Source: Zygnema cylindricum (taxonomy: Eukaryota > Streptophyta > Zygnematophyceae > Zygnematales > Zygnemataceae). From it: a stretch of 64,000 nucleotides of DNA. Numbering within the stretch: position 1 is the stretch's first letter; every line of letters begins with the position of its first letter. The notes beneath the pieces were generated by a model. That model had not been told where the DNA came from and did no database searches. It worked only from the letters and a program-made list of their open reading frames with translations. The DNA lies in contig JBBHKE010002349.1 of assembly GCA_037447655.1 (NCBI GenBank), forward strand, positions 54,451-118,450, in the 5' to 3' direction. This document shows, in pieces, positions 6,871 to 54,177 of the stretch. The position numbers and the translations under genes were made by a program.

Positions 6871-6880
6871 NNNNNNNNNN
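6871..6880. other. Assembly gap (10 N)
   Basis: Ten unresolved bases. Continuity of the sequence across this point is not proven. Confidence 0.99.
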
Positions 6881-18470: not shown

Positions 18471-19225
18471 ACATGGGGCCGTACTCTTAGCCGCACAACA
18501 TGACACGTTTACGTTCGCACACTCCAATAAAGACAAAAAAATACAACTACAGTACGTACCATTTCGTGCGTTCAAAATAAAACTCGCGGCCAAATAAAGC
18601 CACGAATCGTAACTAGTGTAGACCCTACGTCCTTGAACCTTTTTCTCTTACAGAAGCAACAATCAACAACGAAAGGCCCAATCAGAGAGGGCTTAAACAC
18701 GTGCGGAAACCAACAAGGCAAATACTATATAGTGTGCTGAGCATTGTTGCGGTTCTTTTTGGTCCTTAGGAATTCGTATATGTAATGGGCACAAAACGGT
18801 AGGTTTCGAAACTGGTAATATTTTAAGTTGACTATGATAAACTATAATCCAAAGTGCACGGACGATATTATTGCCACGAACCACATAATTACGGTTTTAC
18901 CGTCTCTACTGACACTTTTTCAGATTGTACATGTACGGTCAATTACGCCGAATGTCAATTCTGCGGTGAAGATTCTAAAAATACAGAACCGTACAGTACT
19001 GTACTGTAGTTGTTTACGCGGCAAACTAACCGTTTAAAAAAAAAAAAAAAAAAGTGAAAAACCCACTGTCGAAAGAAAAGGACATCATCGCGGACCAATG
19101 AACGTACACAAATACTGTCCCTCTCAGAGAATAAAATCTTCACCCGGTTTTGAGGTACAAATTTTTACGGCTGTACGGTTTCCAGCCGTACCAGACGAGA
19201 CAGCGATGCCTTCAACATCGTAGGA

Positions 19226-19958
19226 CTAAGGGTGTGTCCCCATGTGCATAAGTAAGGGTTTTTTTCTGTCGTTTTCCTGTAAAGCTTAGGGCCGTACTGC
19301 CTAAGTTACAACCGTACGAAGGAATCGCAAATTTGTTGAGTACAATTTGCGTCACCCTCGAATGTACGAAAAATTGTAGTCTTGTGTTTTTCGACCCACC
19401 TCGATGACAAAAAACGTCATCTTCAACCTTATCTTTAAAACACATGCGCGTTGTGTTTTAAAACTAGGGATTTTATATAAACAAATAGGAACACATATTC
19501 GCACGTGCCGTAATTTTCGAAGTTTTTTACACGATTTTCAAAGACAAAGGAAAGTACAGAAGTCGCTATGTTTTGTCCGTTTGCATTTAATACGACAAAG
19601 ATACGGATTTTTTTTTTGCAGGGGTCTCGAAATTCCGATTTCACGTCGACCGGAGAGGGGACGCAAAGGCAAAGCGCAACTTCTTCAACCGTGAAACGGT
19701 ACAGGCTGGAAGGCGGTACGTCTACAATGTCACGGTAAGACATGCGACGTCACACAAGCAGTTCCAAAAAATAACGTCCAACAACACAGATTGTAGACGT
19801 TGACAACCGTCACAGGTATTGTCGACGTATACAATCGTCACAAACGTAAGTTACGATTACGTTCTTACACATTAACACTTGAAAAGCGAGCCGCCGGATC
19901 CGCGCTAAAATACAAAGTAAGTTCGCTAAGTTACAAGTACATGGGGACAGACCCTAAG
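19226..19958. mobile_element. TIR/foldback element, family T2, complete
   Basis: 733 bp. The left end ctaagggtgtgtccccatgt is inverted at the right as acatggggacagaccctaag. The interior again has the gcaggggtctcg and gtctacaatgtcacgg blocks. No clear target-site duplication beyond one or two bases and no coding capacity. Confidence 0.7.
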
Positions 19959-20029
19959 ATGGCTTGCCCCCTAAACTTGCGGCTGTTTAAACGGTTAAAC
20001 ACGACACCGTGAGTCGCTATTAGCATTAT

Positions 20030-20547
20030 GTACTCTATATCGGCGCCCCCAATTTTTGACCTCGAAACCTGAAATATAATTAACATCACTAATTTTTCTT
20101 TGACGTTAATTACGGTTCTTGTAATTTAGCGTTAACAATTATGATGTACGCATTTCCTGAATAGTGTGGTGTACGGAAGATGTTAGTTCGTACAGCAATG
20201 TAATTTATTACGGAAAATCGTACGGAAAATGTAGTTAACTTATGGCGGTTGCATACAGAACTGCGCTTCAAATTAACGTGGAGTCGAGTTTGCGACAAAC
20301 GCGTTCGCAAACCCAAATTAGAATTATGGATTAATTATAATACATTGTACGAGCTGTTAGATTTTGTACATCTACCTATTTTACTGTAAACATAATTACG
20401 CAGATCCGGTGTACCTAAATCAGCGTTATGGATCAATTAGAATTAAACTTTTTTTTTGAAATGTTGCAAAGCCCAAATTAGCATTAATAACACTAATTAA
20501 TTATTAACACTAATCATTTCTAAACGTTAATAACGATTCACGGTGTA
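20030..20547. repeat. Degenerate T1-like terminal sequence
   Basis: It ends with taataacgattcacggtgta, the family-T1 terminal repeat with one or two changes. The interior has attaattat/gcgtta words typical of the small T1 relatives. The left end is not recognisable. Confidence 0.4.
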
Positions 20548-20774
20548 GCGTTTAAACGTTTAAATCATCGGTCGTTCAAAGGTTTGAACTCGAAAATCGT
20601 ACAGGTAGCTCAGATTATATTTGGAAGCTAACAAAATTAACCGAACTAACCACTTCCACAGGTCAAAAACTTATTCTCAATCTAAGTAGCTGGAGGAGAA
20701 ATAGACAGAATTTCTAAAGTCAATGTCAAAAACTAGCTTCAAAACATGGGTGCTTTTGCAGTGTGAAAGCTGAC

Positions 20775-20915
20775 AATAAAAAATAAAAGAAAGAGAGAAG
20801 GGCAGAAGAGAGAAGGATCGGAAGAAGGAGCGTGATAGGGACAGGCATAGGGAGAGGAAGTGGAACTAGGAAGAAGAGAGATAGAGGGAGGAGATGAGAG
20901 AAGGAGATAACAGTA
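20775..20915. other. Purine-rich (GA) tract before the lectin start codon
   Basis: About 140 bp dominated by A and G lies directly upstream of the ATG at 20933, followed by aaatataaataaaaaaat. It could be the 5' leader of the lectin transcript; no firm promoter element can be assigned. Confidence 0.4.
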
Positions 20916-20932
20916 AATATAAATAAAAAAAT

Positions 20933-21802
20933 ATGGCCATGGTTATTGGCTCCTGCAGCCAAATAATTCAGTGTGCTGCCATCTTTCTTATCCTCTCTGT
21001 ATTTTTTTTTACTGGGAGAGTATTGGCCGTCGAGACAACGTCAGCGTTCACATTTACGCAATTTGATGATCCGAAAAATCTTATCCTTTATGGATCATCT
21101 CGACTTGTTACCTCCCAACTTCAACTTACCAATGGTCACCACCACGAAGGACGAGCATTGTTCACAAATTCAGTCCCTCTTCTCCGAAATAATCGCACTA
21201 ATGGGTGCGGAGCAGCTTCATTTAACGTGCAATTCTCTTTCCGCAATTACAACGACAATATAACGTGCCATGGCGATGGCTTTGCCTTCACATTTCTTGG
21301 CTCAAACATAGACTTTTCCAAATTGGGAGGGGATGGTCATCGCATGGCACTTGCGTACACAGGTGAACCTGTTGTGGGTAGTGTTAGCATTGTTTTTAAC
21401 ACTTATGTCGATGATTACAATCCTCCAAGAAGATTCGTGGGCATACGTGAAAACTTTGTTTTTGCCCCAGTGACATCCAACAGAACAACTATTTTGGATG
21501 ATTTCAGTCCGTCCACCAAGTATGCGTGGGTGGATTACGATGGTGCACGCCAGATTTTGCAAGTGTACCTCAACACTGAGAATGCTAAGCCAGCGACGCC
21601 TTCTCTTACATACAAAAAATCCCTTTGCGAGTTGCTGAGGCCATCTGCCTGTGCCGCATGCCAAACAGTTACTAAAGCATACGTTGGATTCGCAGCTGGA
21701 ACTGGCGGTTGTTTCGACACTCATGAGATTCAACAGTCCAGACAAGGCATGGCAATACTGTGCGGGTATATGCAGCAAAGACTGCAATTGCAAAGGCTTT
21801 AG
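20933..21802 (+). CDS. Secreted L-type (legume) lectin-like protein, tail out of frame
   Basis: Two ATGs lie six bases apart; the second (20939) has the stronger context, gccatgg. Residues 1-32 form a signal peptide with hydrophobic core AAIFLILSVFFF. Residues 38-267 are a legume-lectin beta-sandwich: FAFTFLGSN (117-125), SVSIVFNTYVDDYNPP (150-165), AWVDYDGARQILQVYL (198-213) and YVGFAAGTG..DTHEIQ (250-267). The usual SWSF after HEI(Q) is absent because sequence breaks after 21733. The last 22 residues are an out-of-frame read of a PAN exon, ending at a stop at 21802. The Glu and Asp that bind metal in legume lectins (VEFDT pattern) read V and N here, so metal-dependent sugar binding is doubtful. 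Extra Cys (232, 240, 243) suggest an added disulfide. The domain is nearly identical to the exon at 26942. It may encode a truncated secreted lectin, or be the broken first exon of the larger locus. Confidence 0.75.
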   Translation: MAMVIGSCSQIIQCAAIFLILSVFFFTGRVLAVETTSAFTFTQFDDPKNLILYGSSRLVTSQLQLTNGHHHEGRALFTNSVPLLRNNRTNGCGAASFNVQFSFRNYNDNITCHGDGFAFTFLGSNIDFSKLGGDGHRMALAYTGEPVVGSVSIVFNTYVDDYNPPRRFVGIRENFVFAPVTSNRTTILDDFSPSTKYAWVDYDGARQILQVYLNTENAKPATPSLTYKKSLCELLRPSACAACQTVTKAYVGFAAGTGGCFDTHEIQQSRQGMAILCGYMQQRLQLQRL

Positions 21803-21912
21803 TATGACACCTATTGTTAACTCCGAACAAGCGTGTTTCTTAAAATTTTTCATCGAAGTGGAATCTAACTTGATAAAAACCAAAAATTACGATTTGTATG
21901 TCAAACGTCCAA
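21734..21912 (+). pseudogene. PAN/Apple domain exon, 5'-truncated and out of frame with the lectin
   Basis: In a different frame from the lectin it reads DKAWQYCAGICSKDCNCKGF, then a Cys-containing stretch and NYDLYVKRP. This is the C..C...C.C.GF pattern of a PAN/Apple fold, which mediates protein or carbohydrate binding in secreted proteins. It ends CCA-A before GTAAGC, a good phase-1 donor identical in style to the second PAN exon (25249). Compared with that exon, the N-terminal third with its first Cys is missing. A deletion apparently joined the lectin exon to the middle of this exon, removing the lectin end, an intron and the PAN start. Confidence 0.7.
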
Positions 21913-22960
21913 GTAAGCCTCTAAATCCCGATTTTCATCATGTTGTTGATTTTCAGATTCCCGTTTCATAAGTTAATTAGTTGTTGTTATTTGCATTGTT
22001 TTGAAGATGCAGTATTGTTGTACGCTCATGGTCAAAAATCGTATGTCCAGTAATGAATCTCCAATTGTGCCCTATTGTCCAAAGGATCTTTAACAATTAT
22101 ACATGAGTTGGTGATATTGACAAATATGTCATTTTCGCAGCTTTCGATGCATTGCATGAAGCATCTTTAGATTTGATGTAGGATTCCTCGATAAATCTTG
22201 GGTGGTAAATTCCGACCTTAATTAATGACGTCACCCTAAGATTTTTTTCGTTGCCAAAACCAAGGTTGAATAAGGTCATGAAATGCATTCCTCTATTAGA
22301 TGATAGAACCTTAGTGTGTGTTTTAGCATCATGGGGGTGATAAGACTAAAGGTTGTGTGAAAGCACAAGAGTACACCTTCAATAAATTATCTCTGGTTAG
22401 GAGACGGGGAAAACCTATAAGTACCATATTTTTTAATCCTAAGTAACTAACCATATTGGTATTAGTTCTGGCATTTTTGACAAGAAATGTGAAGTATTTG
22501 GACATGGTCAAATGTGAGGCACAAAGGGCAATATGTCTAATGTTCACAGTCGTTGTCAAAATTGGAGGATACAAACAAATGAGCACAGGATCATAAAACT
22601 TAAGGAGGGAAATTTTGACCGATTGTGGACCTACAATCTTGTAGAAATTCGGCTACTCTACAAATCTACATTGACAGGTGGAAAAAAAATATATCTAAGA
22701 ATCGTCCTTGTGAAGGTAGAAAAAAAGAGAGAAATCGGTCTTCTTAATTTACAAAATGTCCTTCTTTTGTGTCAACTATTTTTTTTCCGTCAACATATGG
22801 CAATGTGCTGATTGAGAACCATTTCTCTAATAGTCACAATTATTATTATTATTATTATTAGTAATAGTCACAGATTATCCCATATCAATTGTCACGCAGA
22901 TTACTAACCCCTACTTAACAGTAGAGCTGGGAATGAACCTAGCACATACCTATTTTTTAA

Positions 22961-23196
22961 AGAGCGTGTTAGTGATGTGGATAATTGCCGGATATAAAGG
23001 AGCGTGTTAGTGATGTGGAAAATTGTCCGATATAAAGGAGCGTGTTAGTGGTGTGGACAATTGTCGGATATAAAAGAGCGTGTTAATGATGTGGACAATT
23101 GTCGGATATAAAGGAGCGTGTTAGTGATGTGGACAATTGTCGGATACAGTGACGTGGACAATTGTCGGATATAAAGGAGCGTGTTAGTGATGTGGA
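22961..23196. repeat. 38-bp minisatellite in the intron
   Basis: About six units of gagcgtgttagtgatgtgga plus caattgtcggatataaag; one unit is internally shortened (cagtgacgtgg, about 23146). The neighbouring 21913-22960 has no other feature I recognise, apart from a short (att)n run near 22842. Confidence 0.95.
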
Positions 23197-23289
23197 CTAG
23201 AACAAGCACCCAGTCGGTGGACTTTAAGTTTAGATGAATTTCTCATAAGATGAAGATTCATGAGATTTAGTGATGATCACTTCGTGTAT

Positions 23290-23560
23290 GTACTCAATCT
23301 TTAAGAAGTATTGTCTTTTTAACCATATATGTAGATGATTAATTGCTTATTAGCAATTCATTAGAGGAAATTGAGAAAGCAAAAAGTTTTTTTGAAATCA
23401 TGGTTTGAAAAAAAACGTAGGTGAAGCTAAGTGATTAGAAGGCAAAAAAGGATCGAAAAAAATCACTCCATCACAAAATAACATTTTTTAATTCCTATTC
23501 CTAATAGAGTCTATAACTTTAATTCTGCTCTCATGTGTTTTGCCATTTGACCAGAAGATA
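23290..23560 (+). pseudogene. Old Copia reverse-transcriptase relic in the intron
   Basis: On the + strand near 23315 the translation reads TIYVDD, a stop, then LLISNSLEEIEKAKSFF, the Copia YVDD box and following helix. Downstream frames are broken by stops. No LTRs are visible. It lies in the same direction as the host locus. Confidence 0.6.
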
Positions 23561-24083
23561 GAATTGATAATACTAACTGATAGGTACTAATTTGTCACAT
23601 TGCTTGGGAATCAATGACACTAAAAAGACCCATGCTATTAAGTTTGTGTTAGACTGTACCAAAAAGTGAAACATTATGATCACTCTATAGGCATTTTTTG
23701 TGTTGTAACTCTTGATCACAAAAGTTCAGCAGTTTGCAGCTGGCAGCCATAGCCCCCAAAAAGCTTTGGAAAGTTGAATATAAATGGCATACTTAGCTCA
23801 TTATGTTTTTTGTGGCTTGATTTAGATGACAGGCTAGAGTTTGATTCCAACTTTCATCTATTGTACTCTGGTGATTGTTTTCTGATTAATATTTAGTCAA
23901 CTTTATTATTCGTGGTTCGCCGCTGAGCATGATGTGAATTTCACGTGTTTTACCTTCTCAAGTGTATTTGTTTTATCACTATTGTTTTTTTTATCTGTTC
24001 ATGTGGTTGAAGTAGCTGTAAAGAAGCAGTTGCCATTTGTATGAGAAACTCAGATCAACAATTGTTGTGGTTTCTTTTTCTAG

Positions 24084-24524
24084 CTAATTATGCCATGGGC
24101 CGTCCGACGTACCAGAGCAGCACATTAATCGATAGTGGAGGCCAATATCAAGCAAATCTTGCAGTTGACGGTGAGCCTAATGGAGACTTCGTTGGCGGCA
24201 GCTGTACACACAATATTGAAGAAACAGACCCATGGTGGATGGTGGACCTCGGGAAGTCCTCACAAATAGAGATGGTGGAGCTATGGGGGCGGATGGACTG
24301 TTGTCGTGACAGACTGACTGGGGTTCAAGTATGGGTGGGAACAAGCAACCAAAGGTGGGATAGCGATGGAAACAAAGAGTGCGATCCTGCCAATTATTTC
24401 AATGGACCATGGGATGGAAGACCCATCACAAAGACATGCCTGACCTCCGCCCGTTACGTATGGGTACGCCTAAGCGGTCAAAATAGGATCTTAACACTTT
24501 GTGAAGTTCGTGTTTATGGCTATG
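24084..24524 (+). CDS. Exon encoding an F-type lectin (fucolectin) domain
   Basis: The exon runs from after TTTCTAG to before GTGAGT, 441 bp, phase 1 at both ends. It opens NYAMGRPTYQSSTL and contains AVDG, SCTHNIEETDPWWMVDLG, WGRMDCCRDRL, VWVGTS and, at the end, LTLCEVRVYGYG, the full fucolectin/tachylectin-4 (FTP) signature. The fucose-binding motif H-x26-R-x-D-x4-R is intact (exon residues His43, Arg70, Asp72, Arg77), with the adjacent CysCys pair typical of the family. F-type lectins bind terminal L-fucose outside the cell, using a bound calcium. The next exon begins in the matching phase. The ATG at 24041 lies in the acceptor's polypyrimidine region and is not the start. Function in this locus is inferred. 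Confidence 0.88.
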
Positions 24525-25012
24525 GTGAGTTGGAAGATGCAACTTCAAACAAAGCAACCAGAACGTTGAATCAAATTTTTTATGTTGTCACATTATTTGA
24601 TGGTTACCGATTTTGTAATTACGTGCAAACATAATTTCGTGCATATCATGAGCTTCAAATCAGGTTAGGACATTTAATTGAAGGAAACTGAGCTTTTTAT
24701 GCTCATCACAAGTTGCCGAGGCATACCCTATGGTGCTCGTGTGTATTGGTGTAGTTGTTAAGTGTTTACCTTATCTGTCTTTTGTATGGCGATATTTTAT
24801 CTTCTTGTACTGAGCTCAACGTGTCCATCTTACCCTAAAATTTCATCTTAGAATATGTAAAATGTGTCAAAGTATCGAGGGGTAATGATTTAGAGGTGTG
24901 GTAAGGCACAGCGCAATTGTTTTATGAGTTTTCAGGTTACTTTCTTTCCTTTCATTTGCTTGTTAAAGTATATATTTAACAGTTTGTCTGTCGAATCATT
25001 TTCACCCTGCAG

Positions 25013-25249
25013 ATGGCCAAGCGTGCAGTGATATGCAGTATTCTTACAACAGTTACCGCAACATGGATGCTCCCGGAAATGACATTGCATATTATATTAC
25101 GAACTTTACGTTTTGTCAAAGGAAGTGCACGGAGGACTGCACCTGTACAGGTTTTAGGATAAATAACCAGGAATGTTGGATAAAGTCGAACACCGATGGA
25201 TCCACTCGGATGGACGTGGGCTTCGGTTTTTTGTACACAAAAACCCCAA
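25013..25249 (+). CDS. Exon encoding a PAN/Apple domain
   Basis: The exon runs from after CCCTGCAG to before GTAGGT, 237 bp, phase 1 at both ends. It reads DGQACSDMQYSYNSYRNM, then FTFCQRKCTEDCTCTGFRI, NQECWIKS and FGFLYTKTP. Six Cys in the C...C..KC..DC.C.GF..(N/E)C spacing mark a PAN/Apple domain. Such domains bind proteins or glycans in secreted and receptor proteins. It follows the F-lectin exon after a 488-bp intron. The exon at 21734 is a truncated relative. Confidence 0.82.
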
Positions 25250-26265
25250 GTAGGTGTCTCGTTTACTTATAGAGTGACTCTTCAATCAAGGAATTGGGCC
25301 TAGTACTCTGCTTGCTGTTCTACTAGCTTCATCTCTTTGTTTGGGAATCATGCATTCATATTGACACCTGGTATAAAAAGTTATAAATAATAATTTAGGT
25401 GATTTTTTTTTTTAAACCTGTAATTACTATTAGATTGTGCAAAACTTACGTGCTTTCGTTCACGATTTTTTTCCTCTGGCACATACATAGTGAAAGCTAA
25501 AATATCCTAATAGACAAATGTCCATTCATCTAGTTTTCTTCCCATTATAACAATGGCATGTTATCTAAAGTCTTGAATGGTAAACTTGATGACCAATTTT
25601 TCATGAGTGGATTATTTATAAACGCATGTTCAAGTCGGATGGCAATAGCCTGCGAGGACATGGGTTATTGGTCATGCAATAACCCAAAAATTGGTGCGAT
25701 GTCGTTGACTCCTGAGGGTAATGTGATAGGCTAAAAAAAGTTGGATGGATTCTGCTCATCAAGGAAGTCAATCTCTATTCAGAGGCATTTGAACGATAAT
25801 AATATTATGTAGAATAGTCCCCTAGGAAGTTCATTGCGTGATAGTAGAATTCACGCAACCATTGGAATCTACTTAGCCAGTGACGTGACAATTATTTTTC
25901 TCACTTTCATGACGATACATTGATTCACTTTGTAATTGGTGGTGTATGATGTCTTATTGAAAATCCTGCATGTTTCATATTAAAAGTGGTCCATCTTGAT
26001 TTCGGACATATAACACGTGGTCAAAACGACGCGGATCTTTCCAACTTGACAGGTAGCAAGGGTTGGCTAATGGCAGATGCGATCGAGGTAGATGAAACCA
26101 TGGGCATTTTACCCCTTTAAAACCCCGATATTGTAGATTGTGAAATGTCCCACTTCTAGGTACAAATCTTATTGTGAAATAAGTTTTAAAACCACCATTG
26201 TCATGTCATTTGCTTGCTGCAAAACCAAATAATGTTTTTCTGTAAATGTCCTTCTTTGGTTCCAG

Positions 26266-26391
26266 CCTTTTCTCCGCCTCCGCCTCCATACTCTCCTCCA
26301 CCACCACCTCGTCCTCCTCCTCCGTCTCCCCCCAAAAGGCCCATACCAAGTCCCCCAAGACCACCTCCTCCACCCCCACCTGCACCATTCG
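26266..26391 (+). CDS. Exon encoding a Pro-rich linker
   Basis: The exon runs from after TTCCAG to before GTTTGT, 126 bp, phase 1 at both ends. The 42 codons read FSPPPPPYSPPPPPRPPPP and continue as Pro with Ser, Arg and Lys, ending PAPFG. The SPPPPPY units resemble extensin-like motifs, which in plants are hydroxylated and arabinosylated and would give a stiff extracellular spacer between lectin modules. The Gly/Glu-rich open frames on the opposite strand are shadows. Confidence 0.75.
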
Positions 26392-26941
26392 GTTTGTTGT
26401 CAATTCCTTGCCTCGCCGTATTGCATACTAAGTTTGTAAGGCTGTAATAAGGCTTTAATAGTGATGTTGTCACTGTCACGCTATCTAGAATTCAGAGTGA
26501 CCCGTGCCAAGTGTTTACACTCACAACTGGAAAATCTTCTTGGTCTTATCTATTTTTGAACCCCTCGAAAATTCAAAATGTGCGTCTCACGGGCATGGAT
26601 AAAGCAAAAAACGAACTTGTCCATAAATCGACTACTAAGATCGTCTTACGTTTTATAATATGAGATCGAGAAGAGCAAATAATGCTCTAAATTTTATCTT
26701 GCTTTATTTTCCTATATTTCTAGTCAAAGGAGCTCGAATTCTCCAAGCTATACTAGTAGCCCATCCGGCCTCTATATGTGGATGGGTGCACCTGTGTTAA
26801 TATTATCATCAATAGTTTGATCTCCGATCGAGTATGTAATCGTTTATACGGCAGCAAGAAACAATACATGCTTGTAATTACTTTGTGCTTATCCATTTTC
26901 CTTGCTTTTGTTTTGTATGCTAAACACATGCCTTTCATCAG

Positions 26942-27667
26942 ATAACACAGCGTTCACATTTACGCAATTTGATGATCCGAAAAATCTTATCCTTTATGGA
27001 TCATCTCGACTTGTTACCTCCCAACTTCAACTTACCAATGGTCACCACCACGAAGGACGAGCATTGTTCACAAATTCAGTCCCTCTTCTCCGAAATAATC
27101 GCACTAATGGGTGCGGAGCAGCTTCATTTAACGTGCAATTCTCTTTCCGCAACTACAACGACAATATAACGTGCCATGGCGATGGCTTTGCCTTCACATT
27201 TCTTGGCTCAAACATAGACTTTTCCAAATTGGGAGGGGATGGTCATCGCATGGCACTTGCGTACACAGGTGAACCTGTTGTGGGTAGTGTTAGCATTGTT
27301 TTTAGCACTTATGTCGATGATTACAATCCTCCAAGAAGATTCGTGGGCATACGTGAAAACTTTGTTTTTGCCCCAGTGACATCCAACAGAACAACTATTT
27401 TGGATGATTTCAGTCCGTCCACCAAGTATGCGTGGGTGGATTACGATGGTGCACGCCAGATTTTGCAAGTGTACCTCAACACTGAGAATGCTAAGCCAGC
27501 GACGCCTTCTCTTACATACAAAAAATCTCTTTGCGAGTTGCTGCGGCCATTTGGCTGTGCCGCGTGCCAAACAGTTACTAGGGCATACGTTGGATTCGCA
27601 GCTGGAACTGGCGGTTGTGTCGACACTCATGAGATTCAAAGTTGGAGCTTTGACAGCATTTTTACAG
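26942..27667 (+). CDS. Exon encoding a second L-type (legume) lectin domain
   Basis: The exon runs from after CATCAG to before GTACGT, 726 bp, phase 1 at both ends. It starts DNTAFTFTQFDDPKN and ends DTHEIQSWSFDSIFTG, so unlike the first copy it keeps the SWSF terminus of legume lectins. At DNA level it differs from 21037-21733 at only about a dozen positions over nearly 700, mostly near the 3' end, while flanking DNA is unrelated. The metal-site region reads VSIVFSTYVDDYN, lacking the classical Glu and Asp, so calcium-dependent sugar binding is uncertain. It sits between the Pro-rich linker and the cysteine-protease exons. Confidence 0.85.
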
Positions 27668-28456
27668 GTACGTATTTAAGTCACATTGAAGAATGTGATT
27701 AGCTTCTATGGTGAACTTAATCACACAAATGGTTGGTTAAGTAATCTTAAGTTTTGTTGTAAGATCTTAAAGATCACCTATTCTCGGCTCGCTTGAACTT
27801 GATGTTGTATATCAAAGCAATTCCATCTTATAAGCTTATCTTTTGTGAAAAAATCTAGCCAAGCAAAGCAAAGTAGCGTAATATGATTCAATCATTCACG
27901 CAACAATGGATGTGAAGTTGTTTTTTACATGAAATGATCAATTTTGATTTTCTATTTTTGTTAAAATACTGCAAATTTGTTCTCAGTCGTGTATCTTGTT
28001 TGCTTTTACAAGTGGTAGATAATTTTTCTTGAAAGCCACTAGGAAAAAAATGTTTTTGATAGTCGTAGTTTTTGACAACGCTAAAAACGTTGACGTTCTA
28101 ATAATGTAGTGTAAATCAAACACAGGTGTCAGGGGTGAAAGAGTGAAAACATAGGAAAGCTAAATTCTTGGTCCTCGTAATCAATTGATTGTTGGATCTT
28201 AGTCTCTAATGACCAGAATTTAAGTAGTAAGTTTCACCGGTCAATCCTTCCCTGCACAGACTGGGTAATGGTGCCAAATGTATTTTTCCCGGTTAGAAGT
28301 CACATTGAAGATTAACACTCATGCAACATTTTCATAGGACCTATTTTTTGCGCTATTTTTGTTTATAAATAACCGACGAACTTGAATCTGGTTAAGAATT
28401 CATCGAGCCTTGGCATTTGGCTTGGTATTTGACACTTTCTCCCTTTGGTATGGCAG

Positions 28457-28630
28457 TGTACGGTCTTGGTCTAGATGATGCACAACCGTCAACCAATGCC
28501 GCAGGCTTTAGTCCTTATTTCTTTCATGCGAGCACCGGGTATTTGTGGAGGTTTAAGCCTATATGGACTATAAAAACAGAATGGAGTTGGATGACTGACC
28601 TACCACCAGTGAAGGACCAAGGCGCATGTA
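28457..28630 (+). CDS. Exon encoding the start of a papain-family (C1A) protease domain
   Basis: The exon runs from after ATGGCAG to before GTAAGT, 174 bp, phase 1 at both ends. It ends WSWMTDLPPVKDQGAC, the N-terminal segment of mature papain-like enzymes (consensus DWR...PVKDQG.C) just before the catalytic Cys. Splicing to the acceptor at 31401-31402 would continue as C-R-SCWIYA, placing the intron right beside the active site. The upstream part (YGLGLDDAQPSTNAAGF...) has no recognisable I29 inhibitor propeptide; the lectin modules appear to sit where a propeptide would be expected. The acceptor choice is inference from phase. Confidence 0.65.
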
Positions 28631-28949
28631 GTAAGTATAATGCTTCTCAACTATTTGCGATTGAGTTGGCCTAAAAAAGGAGAGTAATACTTGTGGTTTG
28701 TATCGGTATTTTCCAGTTAAGATCATGTTGTATTATTTTTATTTTATTTTTAAAACTTTGCCCAATTAAATAACCAAACTAATCAAACTAACACTAACAG
28801 GGCTGATCCGTCGATTTGCACAATCTTTTTTGACATTTCCCCTCTCATTGTGGGAATACTTACACCTTGTCAAAATTGACCTAACTTTGGTTTCACTCTA
28901 AGTATGACATCATTGGCAAGCATGACAGTTGCCTCCTCAACTATATGCA

Positions 28950-31100
28950 TAAAACTGAACTCCAACTTCTTACTATTCAGTAGGTCCGCCGCAAAATACC
29001 ATTAAATCTTGATGTGTTTCATCCGCGTATGAAACAAGAGATTCTTTACCGCCAACGCCATAAATTTTTTTAAGTGTGAACAATTCCTAGCTCCCCGGAT
29101 GTCTCCTTCACGCAAATTGAAGCCTTTGCAGCATGGCAAGCCGCCATGTACCAGACCTCTGTAGAACTCAATGCCATTGTTGCTTGGAGCCTGAACTTCA
29201 CGAGGTTGACGCTCCACCAAAACGAAATGCATAGCCTAAAGTTCGCTTTCTGGAATTGAAAGCTCCACCCAATTTACATCGCACTAGTTGTAGCATTCAA
29301 TATTCCTCCTGACTGAAAAACGTAACCTAATACTCAAAAGTACTAACAAGGTAGCGGAAGGGTCGCTTAACGAATTCCTGATGAATCTTCTCTGGAGCCT
29401 GGCAATATCTTCTGACGATGGGGACAGAAATAGAAATATCTGGCCGGGTCCCGTCACATACACACGAGGCAACCAATTTCCTCCCTTTAGAGGACGTCCC
29501 CTATCGCTAGAACATCCATTGTGTCTAGATTCTCAGACTTTTTCTGTTCCAATTTCGGGTTTAAAGGCATCGAAAATGGTTTTGCGTCCATCATCTAGAA
29601 TCGCACCAAGACCTCACACCAAGACCTCTGGATTCTTTGACTTGATCTATTGCATTTTCCTGTCAAAAGGCATCGAAAGTGGTCTTGCGTCCATAATGTA
29701 AGATCACGTCAGCACCTCCTTACACTATTTTTTCCCACTCAAGAGGATGTTCCATGACACATCACGGGTCACCTCAATCCCCAAAATACTTCCTTTTGCC
29801 AATATCCGTCAATTTGAAATGTTGACATAAATAATTTTCAGCTCCTTGAATCTCCCCAAGCTATCACAGACCATAATCAAATACTCCATGTAAATCGACA
29901 GATAAACTTATCTTCCTCGTCACCTTTTACGTAAACTCCGGAAACTGAAAATAGCCTTACAAACCAAAACTCCGTAAGAACTATATGTAGCCGCAGGTAC
30001 CATGTTCATGGGGCTTGCTTCAAGACATACAATGATTTTTGTAACCACCACATCAGGTCTAGATTTGTTGTCACACCTTCTACATCTCTCGTATAGTCCT
30101 CCTCGAGGTCACCATTCAGAAAAGTTGTCACATCCTCCATCTGATGGAGATATCTTTTAACGACTACTGCCATGGCCAAAGTAATCCTTGACGAATCAAA
30201 TGACCACGGGAGCAAGGATCTCCATATTATCAACTCCGTCTTTTTATTGAAATCCTTACGCGCAATTCGCACTCTATACTTGATCACCTCATCGGACAAA
30301 CCCCTTTTCGTGTTTGGAAGCCCACTTAGCTTTGATCTTTTTTTTATTCGCAGGTAATTCTAACTCCTCAAATGTCCTATTATCAACCATTAGAAATACT
30401 ATTCCCATGCTAGTTTTGACTTTGTGTCCCAATCTCCAATTTTCTCACTTCGGTATATGATCGCAAGTCCATTACATAGACTTACTATTTAGTTGCCACC
30501 AGAAAAAAACATTCTCTTGAGCCTCAAAAATAAAATTGTGGGACTTGGAGTTGTCCATACCTTTTCGGTTGTACGACAACCATAAGGTTTCTTCCCCTTG
30601 GTCTCTTCGCTTCTACTCATTTATGGTAAGCTTACTTTAGGCTTTTGACTGCTGTAAATTCTCTTTGAAGATTTGGAACTCAATGTACCACGACTCTAGA
30701 TCTCACTTTAAGTCTCTACTTTCTTAAAACTTCCATTAACCAAGTCAAACTTCAATTTTGTGTTTGCTCAATAACCATCAAAAATATCAAATCCTTGTGA
30801 AAATCCACATTTTGAGACTCCACGACAAACTTCCCCGTCACATCAAACACACGGTAGAGACGACCCTAGGGACAGGCACTCACTAAACACAGACTACAAG
30901 AAAAACATGATTCGCCTTCCCCTATCAAGACACCACATCATCGAAACTAAATGTACACAGCACAATGTGCGCGTTACCTCGCACTTCGCACGAAACCAAA
31001 CATACATTTTGAACAAGACATTTGTAAGACCGAACTAAACAGACTGATGGGGGCACGACTGTTAAGCTGATTCGCACGATGTATCCTAACAATTACTTTG
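28950..31100 (-). mobile_element. Old, fragmented Copia relic in the protease intron
   Basis: On the - strand, 30006-30299 reads KYRVRIARKDFNKK, then MAVVVKRYLHQMEDVTTFLN and LQKSLYVLKQAP, the Copia RT motifs around V..MDVKTAFLNG and YGLKQAP. Farther left (28990-29230) are RNase H remnants such as FHTRMKHIKI. Gene order (RT right, RNase H left) shows - orientation. Stops and frame changes are frequent; no LTRs are recognisable. Confidence 0.7.
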
Positions 31101-31402
31101 AAACGACACGACTCGGGACTAAAACCAGATTTTGACCAAATAAAACCTAATGATTGATTCACCATTGGCATATACAAACAATTTATACACACTTTGGTAC
31201 TTCCTTTGTTCATTCGTTTCGTGTTTGTTCTTTTTTCTATTCCCCACTTTCCCACGTTTTCTTGTTGTGAATACATACGTCTATCAATGTTGTACATACC
31301 GAAAAAATTACTACATCAAAAATTGTATTCAATGTCTTAGAGTTTCTTTGTTTCATTGGTAACCTGACAGCAGGCATCCGCGATATGCCATTCCCTGTGC
31401 AG

Positions 31403-31532
31403 GAAGTTGTTGGATTTATGCCAGATAGGTGCCATAGAGTGCATACTATATTGCTAATGGAGAACAATTGTGAGACCCCTAGTTTCGAGCAACAAGTGGC
31501 CAGTTGCTTAAACAAGGGTTGTGATGAGACCG
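31403..31532 (+). pseudogene. Catalytic-Cys exon of the C1A protease, with frameshifts
   Basis: After the acceptor CCTGTGCAG the sequence reads SCWIYA, the active-site Cys motif (GSCWAF in most C1A enzymes). It then needs several frame changes to follow the family: IGAIE in a second frame, AYYIANGEQL back in the first, and PSFEQQVASCLNKGCDETG in the third (the LSEQ.LVDC...GC.GG segment). Stops occur in each frame, so this exon as given cannot be translated through. It may be a decayed exon or contain sequencing errors. A phase-1-compatible donor (G|GTTAG) follows. A possible next piece (GTFAKAFLTY near 31705-31735) lies in 31533-32080 but is too degraded to define. Confidence 0.6.
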
Positions 31533-32080
31533 GTTAGCCATCCACGACTCTAAGCTTTGCAACCACAAAAAATCTCACTACCAACTTTGACCTTTAAAAG
31601 CCTTGTACCACACAAATAGTAGGTCATAAACATTTAAGTCTTATACGAAGTCCACATATTTTAAATTTCAATGAAATGAACAACTACACGTTAAACTTAC
31701 ATATGCATGGGACGTTCGCAAAAGCCTTTCTCACGTATTCTACCTTGGCATCCACTTTATATAGAGTCATAATTGGCCTCACCAATTTGCTTTATGAGGT
31801 TTCAGTTTCCCTTGATATTATTGGGGCATTTTTTCTCTTCATCCCAACTCAAGACCAAAGACTCATAGCGAAGTCTAATGAAATTGCAACCATTCATCCA
31901 ATACAATGCCTTTGGTGCCTGTTTGTCTCATTGTTATATATTGAAGAGCTCTTCCTAATGATGCACATGCACATGGGTATTGCTAGCCTACCAGTACTGT
32001 TCGCATATCACGATGGGAGCAAGTCAGACAATTTGGCCGGTTTGGCTTACTCTAGGCCGTCTTTCAATAGCCGGTTATAG

Positions 32081-32462
32081 TTTTCGTTGAGGCTAGTGGC
32101 TTTGCATTTGTTAATTACCATCAGGTACAGAAACTCATCCATACGGGAATTCATAATTGAGAGCTTAAAGCATGTCGTGTGTTTATTGTGTGGCAAGTAT
32201 CATAAGTATCTATTGGTGCATATAGGGCTTTTTCAACAACTCCATGTGTTTTTCGAGTGGAGTGGACCATGTTGTGCTCCTTGTGGGCTATGCGCTGGAT
32301 ATAAAAGAGTTATCGTTGTTGTATTGGATTATTCGAAACTCGTGGGGAGAAACATGGGGTGAGCAAGGCTACATGCGTATGCAAATTATGGGAGGGTTTG
32401 GGGTTTGCGGCATGAACACCCTGCCAGGACTAATTCTAGTTGTTAAAGCTTCAAGAACATGA
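32081..32462 (+). CDS. C-terminal exons of the C1A protease (catalytic His and Asn)
   Basis: Two exons are proposed. The first (32081-32124, after TTATAG) reads [14 protein letters not shown], the papain 'V.IEASG..F..Y' strand; a GTACAG donor follows. The second (32226-32462, after CATATAG) reads GFFNNSMC, then [13 protein letters not shown] with the catalytic His, [19 protein letters not shown] with the catalytic Asn, and ends VCGMN...KASRT-stop. Phases match between the two. The order His then Asn, and the GW/WGE.GY motif, are diagnostic for C1A. This part is intact although the preceding Cys exon is broken. 32463-33840 beyond it holds no recognisable gene. Confidence 0.75.
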
Positions 32463-32999
32463 TTTTTTTGAGGTTGAACATAGGTAAGCGATTTGAAAGC
32501 TCGACGAGCCTATAAATTGATTTCGGCCCCTTGTTGTATTTTTCGCTTCCCTGTTGCTAAATTTTTAATTGTCAAAGGAGTGTCCAACATGAAGGAAGAT
32601 GTTTGATAAAGAGCATGGTAGATAGAAAGCATCATACAGGGTAAGTACAATGTCAAAATCAAATGGAATGGTATTGTATCCTCCAAGAGAAACACATTGG
32701 AATAGATACTTTAGAAGGCTTTACTCAAGAAAAGATTATTCTGAAAAGTATCTTGAATGGGGGGCGGATTTTGATAATTCTCGGGCCTCACATTACTCTA
32801 CGTTCAACATCTTTTAAATTTCATATTTGTGACTTTATCCCCTAAACCAATGTTTTGAACAACCATCTCCCAACTGCCATTGTTAATGGCGAACACAATA
32901 TATGTACCAACAACTTTCTTCAAATAAGCCCCTTGTTTTGAATAGCCTTTAGATTTCACATTTAATCTCCAAAGATGGTAGAACTTGAATTTTTATCTT

Positions 33000-38119: not shown

Positions 38120-40346
38120 TATTTCCTGTCCCTGTCAAGACTCTTAACTTGGCTACCGAACACTTTCAGGTGTGAGATATCTGATTTCCTTCTAACCCAT
38201 CTCTCATAAGGTGTCACTCCCTTTACAGCTCAGGTAAGGACTCTATTCTTAATGTAGTTGGCAAAGTTCATTGCCTCTGCCCAAAATATCTTTCCTATTT
38301 TCTTGTCGGCTAACATACTGCATGCACTATCTCCTAGTGTTCGATTAAACCTCTGAGCTACCCCATTTTGTTCCGGGTTATATGGTACAATTTTCTGTTG
38401 TTGAAGTCCTTCATCTCTCAAGTATTCCTCAAACTAGTTAGAGGTATATTCCTCCCCATTATCACACCTTATTCTCTTAATGGGGTTTTTATGCAACTTC
38501 TCACTCTAGGCTTTATATTCTTTGAAGTAAGTTGATGTTTTAGACTTTGTTTTTAAATAGTAGACTCTAGAGTATCTAGACCAGTCATTGATTATTGTCA
38601 TCATAAACCTCTTTCCTCCAACAGAAGGTTCTTTTGCAGGCCCCCAAATATCTGTGTGGACCAAGTCTAATACTTTTTCACCTGTATATGTAGCGGCTTT
38701 GGGAAATAGAAGTTTGTGAGTCTTACCTTGAGCACAGCCACTACAATCATCCATCATTTCATTATCCCCAAACTGAATGCCTTCTACTACCCCAAGCTTT
38801 TTCATTTCCCTCAACCTATCAAAATGCACATGCCCCAATCGTTTATGCCAAATCACCAAATTTGAAACACCAACATAATAAGCATTTTCTTTCCATTACT
38901 CAAGTTAAGCCTAAACATTCCTTAGCTACCCTTATCTGCCGTGAAGTGAACTTCATCCCCGTACTTAGCTGTAAAGACTCCCTTTTTAGTGAAGGTATCA
39001 AACTCTTTGTCATCTAACACAGACGTAAAGACAAGATTTTTACTCAATTGAGGAATGTAGAGTAAATGTGAGAATGTGAGTATAGAAGTCTTACCCTCCA
39101 CAAAGACTTTCAGATCTACCGACCAAACTTGATCTGTGGTAACCACTCTCCCATCCCCATACTCTATATCTACAGTAGGGATTTTTTTTAGCTTAGTGAA
39201 GAATTCCTTATCGAAACACATATGCATGAATGCACCTAAGTCGATGATCCATCCTCCTTGTGGAGCTTCCCGAATTACTCCAAAGACACACTTCTGTCTT
39301 TGAGGGATCTCCTTCTCCTCCAGAATCTTGTCAAGGAGAATCTCTACATCCTCTTCAGATGACTCATCCTCAGTTTCTCCTGTCACTTTTGTGATCAAAA
39401 GTGCCCTTTTCTTCCCTCTGGAAGAACCCCCTCCACGATTCTCTTAGAGCCTCAGCTTGGACAGCTTGACACAATCTGTGATAAAGTGTCTCGGCTTTTT
39501 GCAAAAATGACAAAGCGATTTGGGGGCCTCGGTCCTCTAGAATGATCTCTTTCCCCTTTGTACGGTTTCTTTAGGTCTTTCTCCCATCGGTTCCCTCCTG
39601 CGGCTAAAGCTTGAACACTCTTCCCTCTTCTCCTAATCTTTATGGTATTTTTCTGCACAAGTATCATCTAGACCACTGTATTCCACTTCCATGAACTATC
39701 AGACATTTCTTGTACTCAGTACATTATGTTTTTATACTCGTGTAGTAACTTCATGATGAGTAGTTAACTTTTATTTTCATTGTACATGTCTATCCGGCAC
39801 TTTTTATCTCCATATACAAACAAGAAAGATCATTACAATAATCATACATATTTCCTTCTTTGTAAGTGTAACTTGCTAGCTTTTGCTCAGCCAAGTAGAG
39901 CTCTTGAATAGTACCAGCTCTATAGATCTCCACCAAACTCTCCTACAGCTCCTCGGCCTTGTAAATGTGAAGGTGAGGGGTGGCCAAACCTTGAGTGAGG
40001 TGTCTAAGAATGAATTTCTTGGCAGCCATGTTTACGTCTTCCCACATATGAGTATCGTTCTCCACGGTCTTCACGACCGCCAATCCGATGCCATGGCAAA
40101 AGGGGTGAGGCGTGTCTCTTTCCCTTTCCTTTTTTCGGACACATTGGTGTCCCCATCATCTCCCTCTTTTGCAGAAGAGTCGCTGCTGCAGAAAACCTTA
40201 CTCCAAATCCCGGCGGAAGTTCCTGAAGGTGGACGTTTCACTTGTCCACTGACGATACCCCAGTATCGTTTTTCACACAAAGCTCCCATCATCATGGCTT
40301 CCCAATAGATGAACCCAGATCCATTGAAGGTGGGCACCCTAGAGGA
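38120..40346 (-). pseudogene. Copia family 2, copy C: gag-protease-integrase region, truncated
   Basis: Reads leftward from the ATG at 40353-40355. Gag opens MGPSSRVPTFNGSGFIYWEA and contains a decayed zinc knuckle (about 39510-39470). The protease motif reads DLGAFMHMC where DSGA is expected. Pre-integrase reads MVIWHKRLGHVHFDRLREMK with CSGC..GK (about 38859-38700), then VHTDIWGPAK of the integrase core, QNGVAQRFNRTLGDSA (about 38370-38320) and KKIGKIFWAEAMNFANYIKN. RT and RNase H are missing: the copy stops near 38120. Frames are interrupted, so it is inactive. Confidence 0.85.
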
Positions 40347-44300: not shown

Positions 44301-44555
44301 CCTTTAGCAAATGATTATTGAATATAGCCTTCGAAAGTGCGACCCTGTGTGATGAGGTGTTCGTACATGTCCTTTTGAGAAGTGTATGTAGTGATAACAA
44401 TATTAACAAGGATGTTAACAACTTTTTTTGCAGTACATTTAATGAAAAATCAAAATCCTACGACCTCACTTATTAAAATTAGGGAATTCCTAGTGTAGAC
44501 ATGTTTACACTGAGTTTAAAATTTTTGACATAGACCTCCGTTCTGGTATAGGACC
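41370..44555. other. No gene recognised
   Basis: AT-rich DNA with short open frames lacking any family signature, splice pattern or repeat that I can identify. Confidence 0.5.
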
Positions 44556-44559
44556 CCAC

Positions 44560-44900
44560 TATCCTCTCCCTCTCCCTTTCCCTCTCCCCCAACCCTCCCC
44601 CTACCTCTTCCCTTCCTCCCCCCTCCCCCTCCCCTTCCCCCTCCCCCTCTCCCCCCCGCTCTCCCTCCTCTCCCCCTCCTCCTCTCATCCCTCTTCTCTC
44701 CCTATCCTTCTCCCCATCCACTCCCCCTTACCCTCCCTCTCCCTCTCCCCCTCTCCAACCTCCTCCCCCTCTCCCTCCCCCTCCCCCTTCCTCACTCCCT
44801 CTCTCCCTCCCCATCCCCCACCCCCTCCCCTCCTCTGCCCCTCCTCTCCCCCTCCTCTCTCCCTCCTTCTCCCCCTCCTCCCCCCCCCCCCCCTCTCCCT
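44560..44900. repeat. 340-bp polypyrimidine (CT) tract
   Basis: Almost pure C and T on the + strand, with ctccccctcc-type units and a C run near 44881-44892. Mirror-like purine/pyrimidine tracts can form triplex DNA. It lies directly against the rearranged LTR of the next element. The Gly/Glu/Arg-rich frames on the - strand are artefacts. Confidence 0.95.
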
Positions 44901-46006
44901 AAGGTCAACTTTGACCCTCCATAACTTAGTGCTCAAGGGAGCAAATTCAGAGATTTTTTTTGCTATTCACTCAAAGGAGTCTTGCCTTCACAAGGGTGAA
45001 GGTGGTCTGAGTTTTTGTCCGCTAGGGTGGAAGTTGCTCTTGGTGAAACACAAAGGGGTCAGAGTTATCCCAATGGCTTATTGGAAGCTATCCATTCTGA
45101 GGACGTATGGAGGCTTTAGAGTTTCACGGGGCAGTTGTTATACTTTGATGTTGTCCGTGGTTTTTGTACAGAAGCTCTCTGGGAGAGAGGGTCCTATATA
45201 CCAATTTTTTCTAAGTCCTCTCTCTCTCACAAAATCTATCTATTATGTACAGAACGAATCATATTACACTTCCGTACAAAAAAGTACAGCTGTAGGTGTA
45301 CTTTTCTGTACGGATACTGTACGACAAGGCCTAAAAGTCGACATATGTCATATCTGGATTCGGTCGCGTAATCACCGAAGATGCCGCGATCCAACGTAAT
45401 TTTGCCATGTGTCGTCACATGTGGCGATGACCACAAACCGTCGAGATTCTCTTTTGCGATCTCAAATTTCTTCCTAGCCATCCGATTAAATGCACATTTC
45501 AATCGTAGCCGTCATAAATACTTGAGCGATATTTGTTTCGTTTAAAGAAACAAATGCGCGGTACTCGTTTCTTATACATACCGTAATCCGTACTTTTACA
45601 TAACTTGATCTATGTATCCCGTAAACAGTTGCAGTTAAATGAATTATCCTATATGGTAATATATATATAAATAACAAACCCCATAGCATGTATCTTAGTC
45701 CTAAACTTAACAGATAAGTCAACCGGCTACCAACTACCTGACGTTCGATAGGTACCAAGATCAAATCCTAGTTTCGATATCTTCCCTTTAAGTAAATAAA
45801 CTACCTATCGGTAAATCAACTAATCTATTTCTCGTAAACCTTTGGATAGCCTAGGTAGCCATGGCTCTAGCTTCCTCTCCAACTTCTCAGTGACTGCAAC
45901 AAGTGTGGGAGTTGGAGAGAGAAGTTAGAGACAAACTGCCTTAGCTTCTTTTTCTGCATTTCAATTTAGACCAAGAAAATACTAACAAGAACCATCAAAT
46001 TCTACA
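44901..46006 (-). mobile_element. 3' LTR of Copia family 2, copy A, with an inverted first segment
   Basis: 45159-46006 aligns with 56155-56999, ending TTCTACA before the polypurine-tract complement ctccccttatttt. The first part (44901-45126) is the same LTR segment in reverse orientation: it reads the reverse complement of 55931-56150, ending gagtttca. About 30 unmatched bases join the two. The tRNA-like module (45704-45771) and hairpin (45875-45919) are present. Confidence 0.7.
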
Positions 46007-49000: not shown

Positions 49001-49396
49001 GACGTAGAGATGATGTTTTTGTTCAACTCCGGAATAAACAATACATCAAAGAATGTAACTATGGATGTCTTTCCTTCTACTAACACTTTCAAATCTACCG
49101 ATCCTAAGTGAGTAGTAGTGACTATCCTCCCATCCCCGTACAATATCTCTACGGTGGGAATTTTCTTATCTTAGTGAATAGGTGCTTATCCTTACACATG
49201 TGCATGCAGGCACCTGAAACAATAATCCAACCTGCTTCACCTTACAATCCACCGTAAACACATTTCTGTCTTCGTGGAATTTCAAACTCGTTTTTCGCCT
49301 CCAACTCCTCATCCAATAGGAGCTCATCGTCCTTATCATCGGATTCCGCCTCATGTACCTGTGTCACAAGGGTCTTTTTCTTTCCTCTCGGGGTTC
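46007..49396 (-). pseudogene. Copia family 2, copy A: protease-integrase-RT-RNase H region
   Basis: Reading leftward: a decayed protease (VSGACMHMC where DSGA is expected, near 49215), pre-integrase MMWHKRLGDVNLDELREMK, integrase core VHTDIWEPAK, then KKIGKRFWAEAMNCANYLKN, a variable linker, RT pieces (47280-47690; LGIQVEKDLERKIIRLTQKE near 46900) and RNase H (CTSGYVLYVGNG..., AQSTMDAEYMA, FCDNEAAIDIS, AKHMDIRLNFVREKVE; 46451-46020). Several stops and frame changes make it inactive. The element is split by the family-1 insertion at 49397. Confidence 0.88.
49392..49396. other. Target-site duplication, left (ggttc)
   Basis: ggttc immediately precedes the left LTR and recurs at 54966-54970 after the right LTR. 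The related copy at 63371-63375 has a single ggttc, the empty site. Confidence 0.95.
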
Positions 49397-50184
49397 TGTT
49401 GAATTTTGTGGGCCTCACTCATCTCGCAACAATCTAGCTTCACAAAGCAAAAACTCTCTCACAGGTCACTCAAGAATCTTCCGAAGCCACAAAGAATTCA
49501 CTCACAAAGTAAAAGCACACTTGCTCAAATTTTCCTCTCCGAGAAGAATCACTTTATTATCTCCAAGTTCTCTTTACAAGGCTTCACTTATCTTTGTATC
49601 TCAACTCACACAGAGTTACAATGCTTTCTCACTATAGGGACTCTTACTATCTCTTCAACTATGGTCACAACCAATTCTCCAATTGTATTGATTTGTCTAC
49701 TTCTCCTACTTTATATATACTCTTTTCTACTCTACCCTTCTAGACATTCTAGAGATTTCTAGCTCTAACTTATTGACAAGTGTCCTTCTCGTGGCTCTCC
49801 ACGTCACAAGAACCTACTAGACATGTCCCCGAAACTCGTGGCTCTCCACGTCACAAGAACCTACTAGACATGTCCCCGAAACTCCAAGGAAACACTTAGG
49901 AACCACCTCGGAAAAGTCCATACCGTTTCCTGTGGAACCTTCTAGAAGCTTCTTCTTTGCACGCCTGTAACTTTTGATCTACGTATCCAAATCTTGCTCT
50001 CTATAGCTCGTTCGAAAGCTCTTTCTCTGTAGATAAAGATCGTCTGGTCGCGTGCTCGATTTAACCATTTAACAAGAAAGTTATTCCACTTTGCACTTCT
50101 GCACTGTGCTTCTCCATTGCGCCACTGCGCTCTCTCCCTTTAATGCACTATCTTCTGAACTAACTTAGGATTACTTTCTCAACA
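49397..50184 (-). mobile_element. 3' LTR of Copia family 1
   Basis: 788 bp, starting TGTTGAATTTTG and ending TTTCTCAACA. It differs from the partner LTR (54178-54965) at roughly seven positions, about 99% identity, indicating recent insertion. It contains a 47-bp tandem duplication (49788-49881). Confidence 0.95.
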
Positions 50185-50194
50185 CCCCCTCTTA
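50185..50194 (-). promoter_or_regulatory. Polypurine tract of Copia family 1
   Basis: TAAGAGGGGG on the element strand, directly before the 3' LTR; primes plus-strand DNA synthesis. Confidence 0.85.
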
Positions 50195-50207
50195 ATCATT
50201 AGTTAGT

Positions 50208-54155: not shown

Positions 54156-54165
54156 GGCTTCGTTT

Positions 54166-54177
54166 GCTCCGATACCA
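54166..54177 (-). promoter_or_regulatory. Primer-binding site, 3' end of tRNA-iMet
   Basis: TGGTATCGGAGC on the element strand, touching the 5' LTR. Plant Copia elements typically show TGGTATCAGAGC; one base differs. Confidence 0.9.

Follow-up and report, generated by a model that had tools for sequence, protein, structure and literature searches.

Do exons that each encode a whole domain, lying in series ahead of a papain-like (C1A) protease in the alga Zygnema cylindricum, belong to one gene, and how was this gene put together? The question is raised by a stretch of 64,000 nucleotides (assembly GCA_037447655.1, contig JBBHKE010002349.1, positions 54,451 to 118,450; C1773:54451-118450 in our numbering), called here the window, and we searched the whole genome (352.8 Mb, 2,689 contigs) for its relatives. 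We conclude that the gene in the window is very probably a decayed recombinant from a multigene family of modular C1A proteases that are predicted to be secreted and whose modules would be reassorted by recombination between paralogues. Five exons on the forward strand encode an F-type lectin (24084..24524, 441 bp), a PAN domain (PAN3; 25013..25249, 237 bp), a Pro-rich linker (26266..26391, 126 bp, the same size as its counterpart in the paralogous locus C1824), an L-type lectin (L2; 26942..27667, 726 bp) and a second linker, E5, which carries an FF(R/H)(Y/H)AS-like motif and, with VKDQG, begins the protease (28457..28630, 174 bp). Each has a single open frame, AG and GT at its flanks, a length divisible by three and phase 1 at both ends. 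Joined, the five give 567 amino acids (aa) without a stop, which bears out the initial annotation in describing them as symmetric 1-1 exons with GT-AG sites. This pattern exceeds chance: paralogues repeat the same exons with both phase-1 splice sites.

Pfam assigned Lectin_legB (E-value 4.7e-28) to L2 and F5_F8_type_C_2 (1.6e-14) to the F-type exon. Since the top PDB match of the latter is the fish (bass) F-type lectin FBP32 (3cqo, 4.7e-41), with eel agglutinin (AAA, 1k12) at 1.9e-14, we regard this "F5/8" exon as an F-type lectin. The PAN3 exon alone gives PAN_2 at 0.018, below the Pfam cut-off; its aa identity is 83.5% to C1824 and 89.9% to another paralogous locus, C2027. The proposed domain names stand for both lectins; the more tentative name PAN leans on C1824, which passes the cut-offs.

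At C1824:54752-67051 we obtained a ten-exon model of 1,044 aa with no stop. The start phases are 0,1,1,1,1,1,1,1,1,0; eight of the nine internal borders are in phase 1 and the last is in phase 0. The order is signal peptide, PAN, PAN, F-type lectin, PAN, Pro-linker, L-lectin, papain-like protease. Pfam domains above the cut-offs are Peptidase_C1 (1.1e-40), Lectin_legB (8e-35), F5_F8_type_C_2 (1.4e-13) and PAN_2 (4.4e-7). For PAN, the whole protein scores 30.3 bits with PAN_2 (cut-off 21.1) and the first PAN alone 29 with PAN_4 (cut-off 27); PAN2 and PAN3 alone stay below the cut-off. The C1A motifs VKDQG, SCW, VDH and RNSWG lie in a single frame. An I29 inhibitor prodomain is common, though not universal, in C1A papain-like proteases; it was not among the 11 Pfam matches of the 1,044-aa model up to E 0.1. 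In C2027, whose 5' end lies outside the stretch read, no stop interrupts the exons of the F-type lectin, PAN, the two L-lectins and E5 or the three exons of C1A. The idea of one multi-domain gene type, drawn earlier from the symmetric exons, is thus supported by the 1,044-aa reading and by the recurrence of the module order elsewhere.

In the genome, E5 has 36 matches, 13 of which besides the window reach at least 70% identity. There are 110 rows for the L-lectin exon (window copy included), 77 for the F-type exon and 150 scored rows for Peptidase_C1 out of 303 first-look candidates. Typed matches were grouped into arrays by contig and strand with gaps of up to 13 kb. Typing covered 35 of the 77 F-type rows, 56 entries (some merged) from the 110 L-lectin rows, 17 of the 36 E5 rows and 27 of the 150 C1A rows, taken from contigs seeming to hold more than one module plus some single ones; the array counts are lower bounds and not frequencies. 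PAN modules are visible solely in the loci read. With F for the F-type and L for the L-type lectin, arrays containing F were F-L-E5-C1A (one, C1824), F-L-L-E5-C1A (three: a second gene of C1824, C2027 and C1385), F-F-L-L-E5-C1A (one, C569) and, in the window, L-F-L-E5-C1A (one); those lacking it were L-L-E5-C1A (five) and L-E5-L-E5-C1A (one). F-type lectin, L-lectin and C1A follow one another in this order at no fewer than six loci, window included. Splice sites were scored on full-length alignments in 21 loci, where two L-lectin and three E5 places were counted twice in overlapping loci. Of 16 L-lectin rows, 13 retain both phase-1 sites; for E5 this is true of 16 out of 17. The single scored F-type and PAN rows (both from C1824) retain both sites as well, and the Cys exon of the protease has a phase-1 acceptor in 13/13 rows. 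The L-lectin rows that fail are the fused first copy of locus C1574, where this is expected, L014 (5' site) and L040 (3' site). These data show that upstream of the catalytic end of the family, which consists of E5 and three C1A exons, lie 1-1 exons that each encode a whole domain (PAN, F-type lectin, Pro linker, one or two L-type lectins), in combinations that vary between loci, so that the same symmetric domain exons stand in differing gene contexts.

Two further arrangements of these modules were seen. At C1607, C2141, C1032, C1934 and C1340, the starts of F-type and L-lectin matches are 1.1-1.5 kb apart with no typed C1A beside them, possibly a second F-L family. Tandem L-lectin modules at C2586:763263-768348 and C2027:392127-394498 have an E5-like exon between them, not the Pro linker.

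The ratio of nonsynonymous to synonymous substitution rates (dN/dS) was calculated pairwise by NG86 for 10-14 loci. We discarded pairs whose dS did not exceed 0.02 or that shared fewer than 40 codons; a few stop-bearing rows were retained, and the pairs are not independent. Median dN/dS was 0.58 for the L-lectin (0 of 75 pairs above 1), 0.61 for E5 (2 of 89), 0.28 for the Cys exon (0 of 53) and 0.62 for the middle C1A exon (13 of 44). When L009-L012 were left out, the first three medians were 0.54, 0.60 and 0.25. Between C1824 and C2027 the values were 0.83 for the F-type lectin, 0.58 for PAN3, 0.44 for the L-lectin, 0.56 for E5 and 0.25 for the His exon. We read this as suggesting that the protease is constrained and that the binding modules are loosely constrained or diversifying; relaxed constraint may be an alternative reading of the values.

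The protease end of the window gene is broken. The exon for the catalytic Cys (31403..31622) has a broken frame, with gaps of 1, 2, 2 and 3 bases relative to C1824, and the middle exon (31949..32124) contains three in-frame TAG codons, one of which is also present in locus C587; the ends of both were placed by homology. The last exon, with His, Asn and the stop codon (32226..32462), is intact, matches Peptidase_C1 at 6e-14 and aligns with C1824 free of gaps. All three exons are on the forward strand. The initial annotation had described C1A exons with Cys, His and Asn motifs and a role as a protease. The intact His/Asn exon agrees with the former; the Cys and middle exons do not, and the role is not borne out for the window copy, in which the Peptidase_C1 domain does not keep Gln, Cys, His and Asn together. 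This copy is predicted to be incapable of yielding an active protease and would give at most a secreted truncated L-lectin. Related loci are damaged as well: C587 has stops in the Cys and middle exons, the middle exon of C1808 is split over two frames, and C1574 has a stop in the Cys exon and a last exon split over two frames. Elsewhere, 10 of 11 loci have a Cys exon free of stops, and the middle exon is free of them in 10/10, in sets that took in C1574 and left out the window, C587 and C1808.

By eye, all three TAGs of the window middle exon sit at CAG positions of C1824, which is consistent with decay from C to T at methylated CHG sites. A different genetic code was considered and dropped, because no in-frame stop interrupts the lectin exons or the open reading frames (ORFs), of 706 and 636 codons, of a retroelement. 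We prefer C-to-T decay of a methylated pseudogene as the probable origin of the TAGs because it is simpler than an altered code, and one stop is also common to C587.

It turned out that the earlier reading had overlooked the 5' end of the gene, at 20933-21912 on the forward strand. A start codon and, by eye, a signal peptide form the head of exon 1 (20933..21041; aa identity 84% to the first exon of C1824 and 89% to that of C1574). Fused directly to it is a first copy of the L-type lectin, L1 (21042..21737), in an ORF that runs from 20933 to 21802. L1 is 98.4% identical to 26948-27642 of L2 across 696 bp; the similarity stops inside the exon edges, so that L1 is without the last ~25 bases of the exon. 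It is followed by a leftover of the second PAN exon, PAN2 (21738..21912), which is out of frame with L1 and has a phase-1 donor at 21913. This remnant shows 87% DNA identity to the PAN2 exon and intron of C1824, with PAN_4 (0.00063) and PAN_2 (0.00078) each below the cut-off. In C1824 the counterpart signal peptide precedes PAN1, an intron and a complete PAN2. C1574 carries the same fusion of signal peptide and L1 and keeps an exon end and a donor. The junction of L1 and PAN2 has at most one shared base and, among the loci read, is seen in the window alone.

The window gene might be functional in a new form, as a secreted L-lectin of 289 aa that ends at 21802, with the remainder untranslated. 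The ORF 20933-21802 is intact and has a signal peptide-like start; the last strand of the lectin (SWSFDSIFT) is gone and the tail is frame-shifted, and we consider this form unlikely, although it survives better than the other alternatives. A decayed gene remains our preferred reading.

We scanned the window against the paralogue loci in steps of 250 bp. Aligning parts of 19001-21737, and 26250-27500, are closest to C1574 (92.8-99.6%), with no match at 19251-20000. Between these blocks, 21733-26250, which contains PAN2, the F-type exon and PAN3, is mainly closest to C1824 (81.6-95.6%), with no match at 23001-23250. Near 26000 the identity to C587 and C1808, two loci read only to ~7 kb before E5, is 74-77%, and from 27501 to 32750 one of these two is the best match in every step (84.8-94.4%). 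The long intron of the window (28631..31402) contains a reverse-strand fragment of a reverse transcriptase (30006-30359; Copia by eye); this intron with its fragment is common to C587 and C1808 and absent from C1824 and C1574. The scan shows a patchwork: three or more paralogue lineages contributed to the window gene, and the breakpoints lie close to the borders of exons. Presumably it arose by recombination between dispersed paralogues. C1574 was also considered as a plain allele of the window and rejected, because its identity, 93-99.6% in two blocks, falls to 74.6-87.2% from 27501 on, and because its outer stretches do not match: of four compared with the window, three gave no match and one gave repeat-like pieces only.

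The patchwork could instead be a chimera that arose when haplotypes or paralogues were assembled together. PMC9915684 reports the putative source strain as diploid with 2.22% heterozygosity, and the confinement of the L1-PAN2 junction to the window would fit this. However, C1574 also has the junction of signal peptide and L1, C587 has the same long intron and one same stop, and the reads used for assembly in PMC9915684 include PacBio HiFi, and we find a chimera improbable, somewhat more so than the new-form lectin. Least probable is a row of two or three adjacent but separately spliced genes, for a secreted lectin, for an F-type/PAN protein and for an L-lectin protease. This might be proposed from the end of the first window ORF ahead of the F-type exon, from ten F-L arrays elsewhere with no C1A match within 13 kb and from an exon joining that is deduced from genomic sequence. 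Against it, C1824 reads through ten exons of compatible phase from one start to one stop over 1,044 aa, the order F-type, L-lectin, C1A is found at six loci including the window, and the internal exons open with acceptor sites and, by eye, have no signal peptide.

A number of points weigh against the picture of a recombining family with a constrained protease and loosely constrained binding modules. The exon borders of C1824 were chosen by hand, and the weak donor of exon 8 (GTCCTA) was picked to keep the frame; the splicing of its exons into one transcript is likewise deduced from genomic DNA. Among loci that have an F-type lectin and a C1A free of stops, just two were read over the greater part of their length, and of the five loci compared, four (the window, C587, C1574 and C1808) have a damaged C1A. 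In the scan, C1574 is ahead of C1824 by only 0.3-1.2 points at four steps (20751, 21501, 26251 and 26501), and assembly of a heterozygous diploid could explain part of the mosaic. As to selection, the median dN/dS of the middle C1A exon rises to 0.76 without the four loci L009-L012, and the Cys exon gives 0.63 between C1824 and C2027. Between the window and C1824 the values are 0.71 for the F-type lectin, 0.60 for the L-lectin, 0.86 for the Pro exon, 0.99 for E5 and 2.21 for PAN3, the last from few changes (1.5 synonymous vs 13.5 other), and, with three of the four introns at 0.926-0.932 identity, only PAN3 (0.937) and Pro (0.952) among the five exons are more alike than these. Finally, alignment to GSI-B4 shows that the metal-site Glu and His of the L-lectin are replaced in C1824. 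By eye, a metal-site Asp is lost as well in the window L-lectin; we take these residues to act in metal and sugar binding.

The F-type lectin was also thought to target fucose. Of the fucose motif His...Arg-X-Asp-X4-Arg/Lys, the window copy has the form His-X26-Arg-X-Asp-X4-Arg, with the spacing of eel agglutinin; PMC5712786, in the part consulted, gives the motif spacing as 24. In C2027 (300711-301151) the fucose-contact His is replaced by Gln, and in the F-type exon of C1824 (L041) it is displaced by an insertion of 7 residues, so that of these three copies the window one alone has the whole motif. Fucose targeting is thus plausible for the window copy only. Because the motif is complete only there and the L-lectin metal residues are partly lost, sugar specificity should not be assumed.

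A protein search with the C1824 protein minus its Pro exon as query returned 37 proteins from 7,096 candidates, Closterium leading. Seven Closterium proteins (P0002, P0003, P0005, P0010, P0012, P0013 and P0018) combine Lectin_legB with Peptidase_C1, and two of them also have leucine-rich repeats (LRR). P0009 (Mesen1/9575, read as Mesotaenium) has LRR, C1A and LysM, and P0008 has LRR and C1A. The latter is a EukProt transcriptome entry, so this form is transcribed somewhere. As in Zygnema, a recognition domain stands ahead of C1A in these proteins, and in Closterium the L-lectin lies immediately before the linker. An FFRYASSG-like linker motif precedes C1A here too (alignment of 10 segments, four from this genome); it is found in six of the eight relatives examined (P0002, P0003, P0005, P0008, P0009 and P0010), while P0013 and P0018 do not match. 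Unlike here, the N-termini of the relatives have LRR (by Pfam in P0002, P0008, P0009 and P0010) and not PAN or an F-type lectin, and their C-termini are longer, with LysM in P0009 and P0013, whereas C1824 ends right after C1A. Within Zygnema, the loci L026-L038 form a second C1A gene group, with a Cys-rich exon, LRR-like by eye, before the same linker motif; for this exon Pfam gives a weak EGF_2 match (0.071).

P0007, a metagenome protein of 1,194 aa, has F5/8-type and PAN_1 domains together, as here, but its Pfam list lacks both C1A and L-lectin. An F5/F8-type domain together with C1A is absent, as judged by Pfam, from all 37 proteins and from the 35 of a second search (7,204 candidates); Zygnema proteomes may be outside the database. 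Other known systems share single modules: F-type lectins such as eel AAA and bass FBP32 match one domain by sequence, which here is one module in a protease gene, and the legume-type (L-type) lectins and lectin receptor-like kinases have Lectin_legB in common with the C1824 model, which is without a kinase. In the literature, the part of PMC11096116 available to us counts 26 Lectin_legB domain combinations in Zygnema, and its main text does not mention papain, Peptidase_C1, F-type, fucolectin, PAN domain or exon shuffling. We met no account of such an architecture in the parts available of the top-ranked matches on F-type lectin, L-lectin and protease, on Zygnematophyceae and on exon shuffling. 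The statement that no plant protein of this architecture has been described therefore holds for the full architecture in the proteins and literature searched. It does not hold for L-lectin-C1A fusions, already present, unnamed, in Closterium gene sets, and the proteome search that had been suggested finds these fusions and no F5/F8-type domain joined to C1A. C1A proteases in which the recognition part at the N-terminus has been exchanged look like an older theme common to zygnematophytes, and the F-type and PAN modules appear, from these comparisons, to be a new, local addition.

Elsewhere in the window, 44500-64000 and ~38200-39400 contain several related, partly nested Copia-like retroelements (by eye), with blocks 72-99% alike; one of them has the 706- and 636-codon ORFs mentioned above. 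A degenerate tandem repeat of ~38 bp lies at 22958-23197, between the PAN2 and F-type exons, and a run of ten N at 6871-6880 is probably a small assembly gap.

We propose that non-allelic recombination between paralogues reassorts the modules and would be tolerated because the modules share phase 1. The protein would be secreted, its lectin and PAN modules would hold it on glycans of the algal wall, mucilage or microbes, and the protease would cut proteins at the glycan-bound site. Steps visible in C1824 are the signal-peptide-like start, the domains and the C1A residues in one frame, and a product of this type is most likely a secreted protease tethered by lectin modules to particular glycans. 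Secretion, sugar binding, cleavage and the role itself, in defence, gamete recognition or wall remodelling, are what we infer.

Class 1-1 exon shuffling has built extracellular proteins, and a review asks, in the part consulted, why it is restricted to Metazoa (PMC8001218). The Zygnema family is like the metazoan case described there in the predicted secretion of its proteins, in the equation of domain and exon and in phase 1-1; the lineage differs. The ROCO LRR genes of brown algae are a published counter-example of exon shuffling at the level of the LRR motif (PMC11378527, in the part available). There too, candidate recognition genes of an alga diversified by shuffling, but single LRR motifs are shuffled, and here different whole domains. 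It is conceivable, although we hold this only tentatively and rate it below even chances, that zygnematophytes run an ongoing animal-style class 1-1 shuffling, in which recombination between dispersed paralogues keeps producing novel secreted proteases directed at glycans, with a use in defence or gamete recognition, and that the window locus is a recent failed recombinant. The modules with 1-1 borders that vary before one protease type, namely F-type lectin, PAN and L-type lectin, are found here in an alga near the land plants, and close paralogues let the breakpoints be read directly. Thus, the questions "why 1-1" and "only animals?" become testable outside animals, and the family lends itself well to such a test, since accounts of phase 1-1 shuffling of domains usually treat it as a feature of animals.

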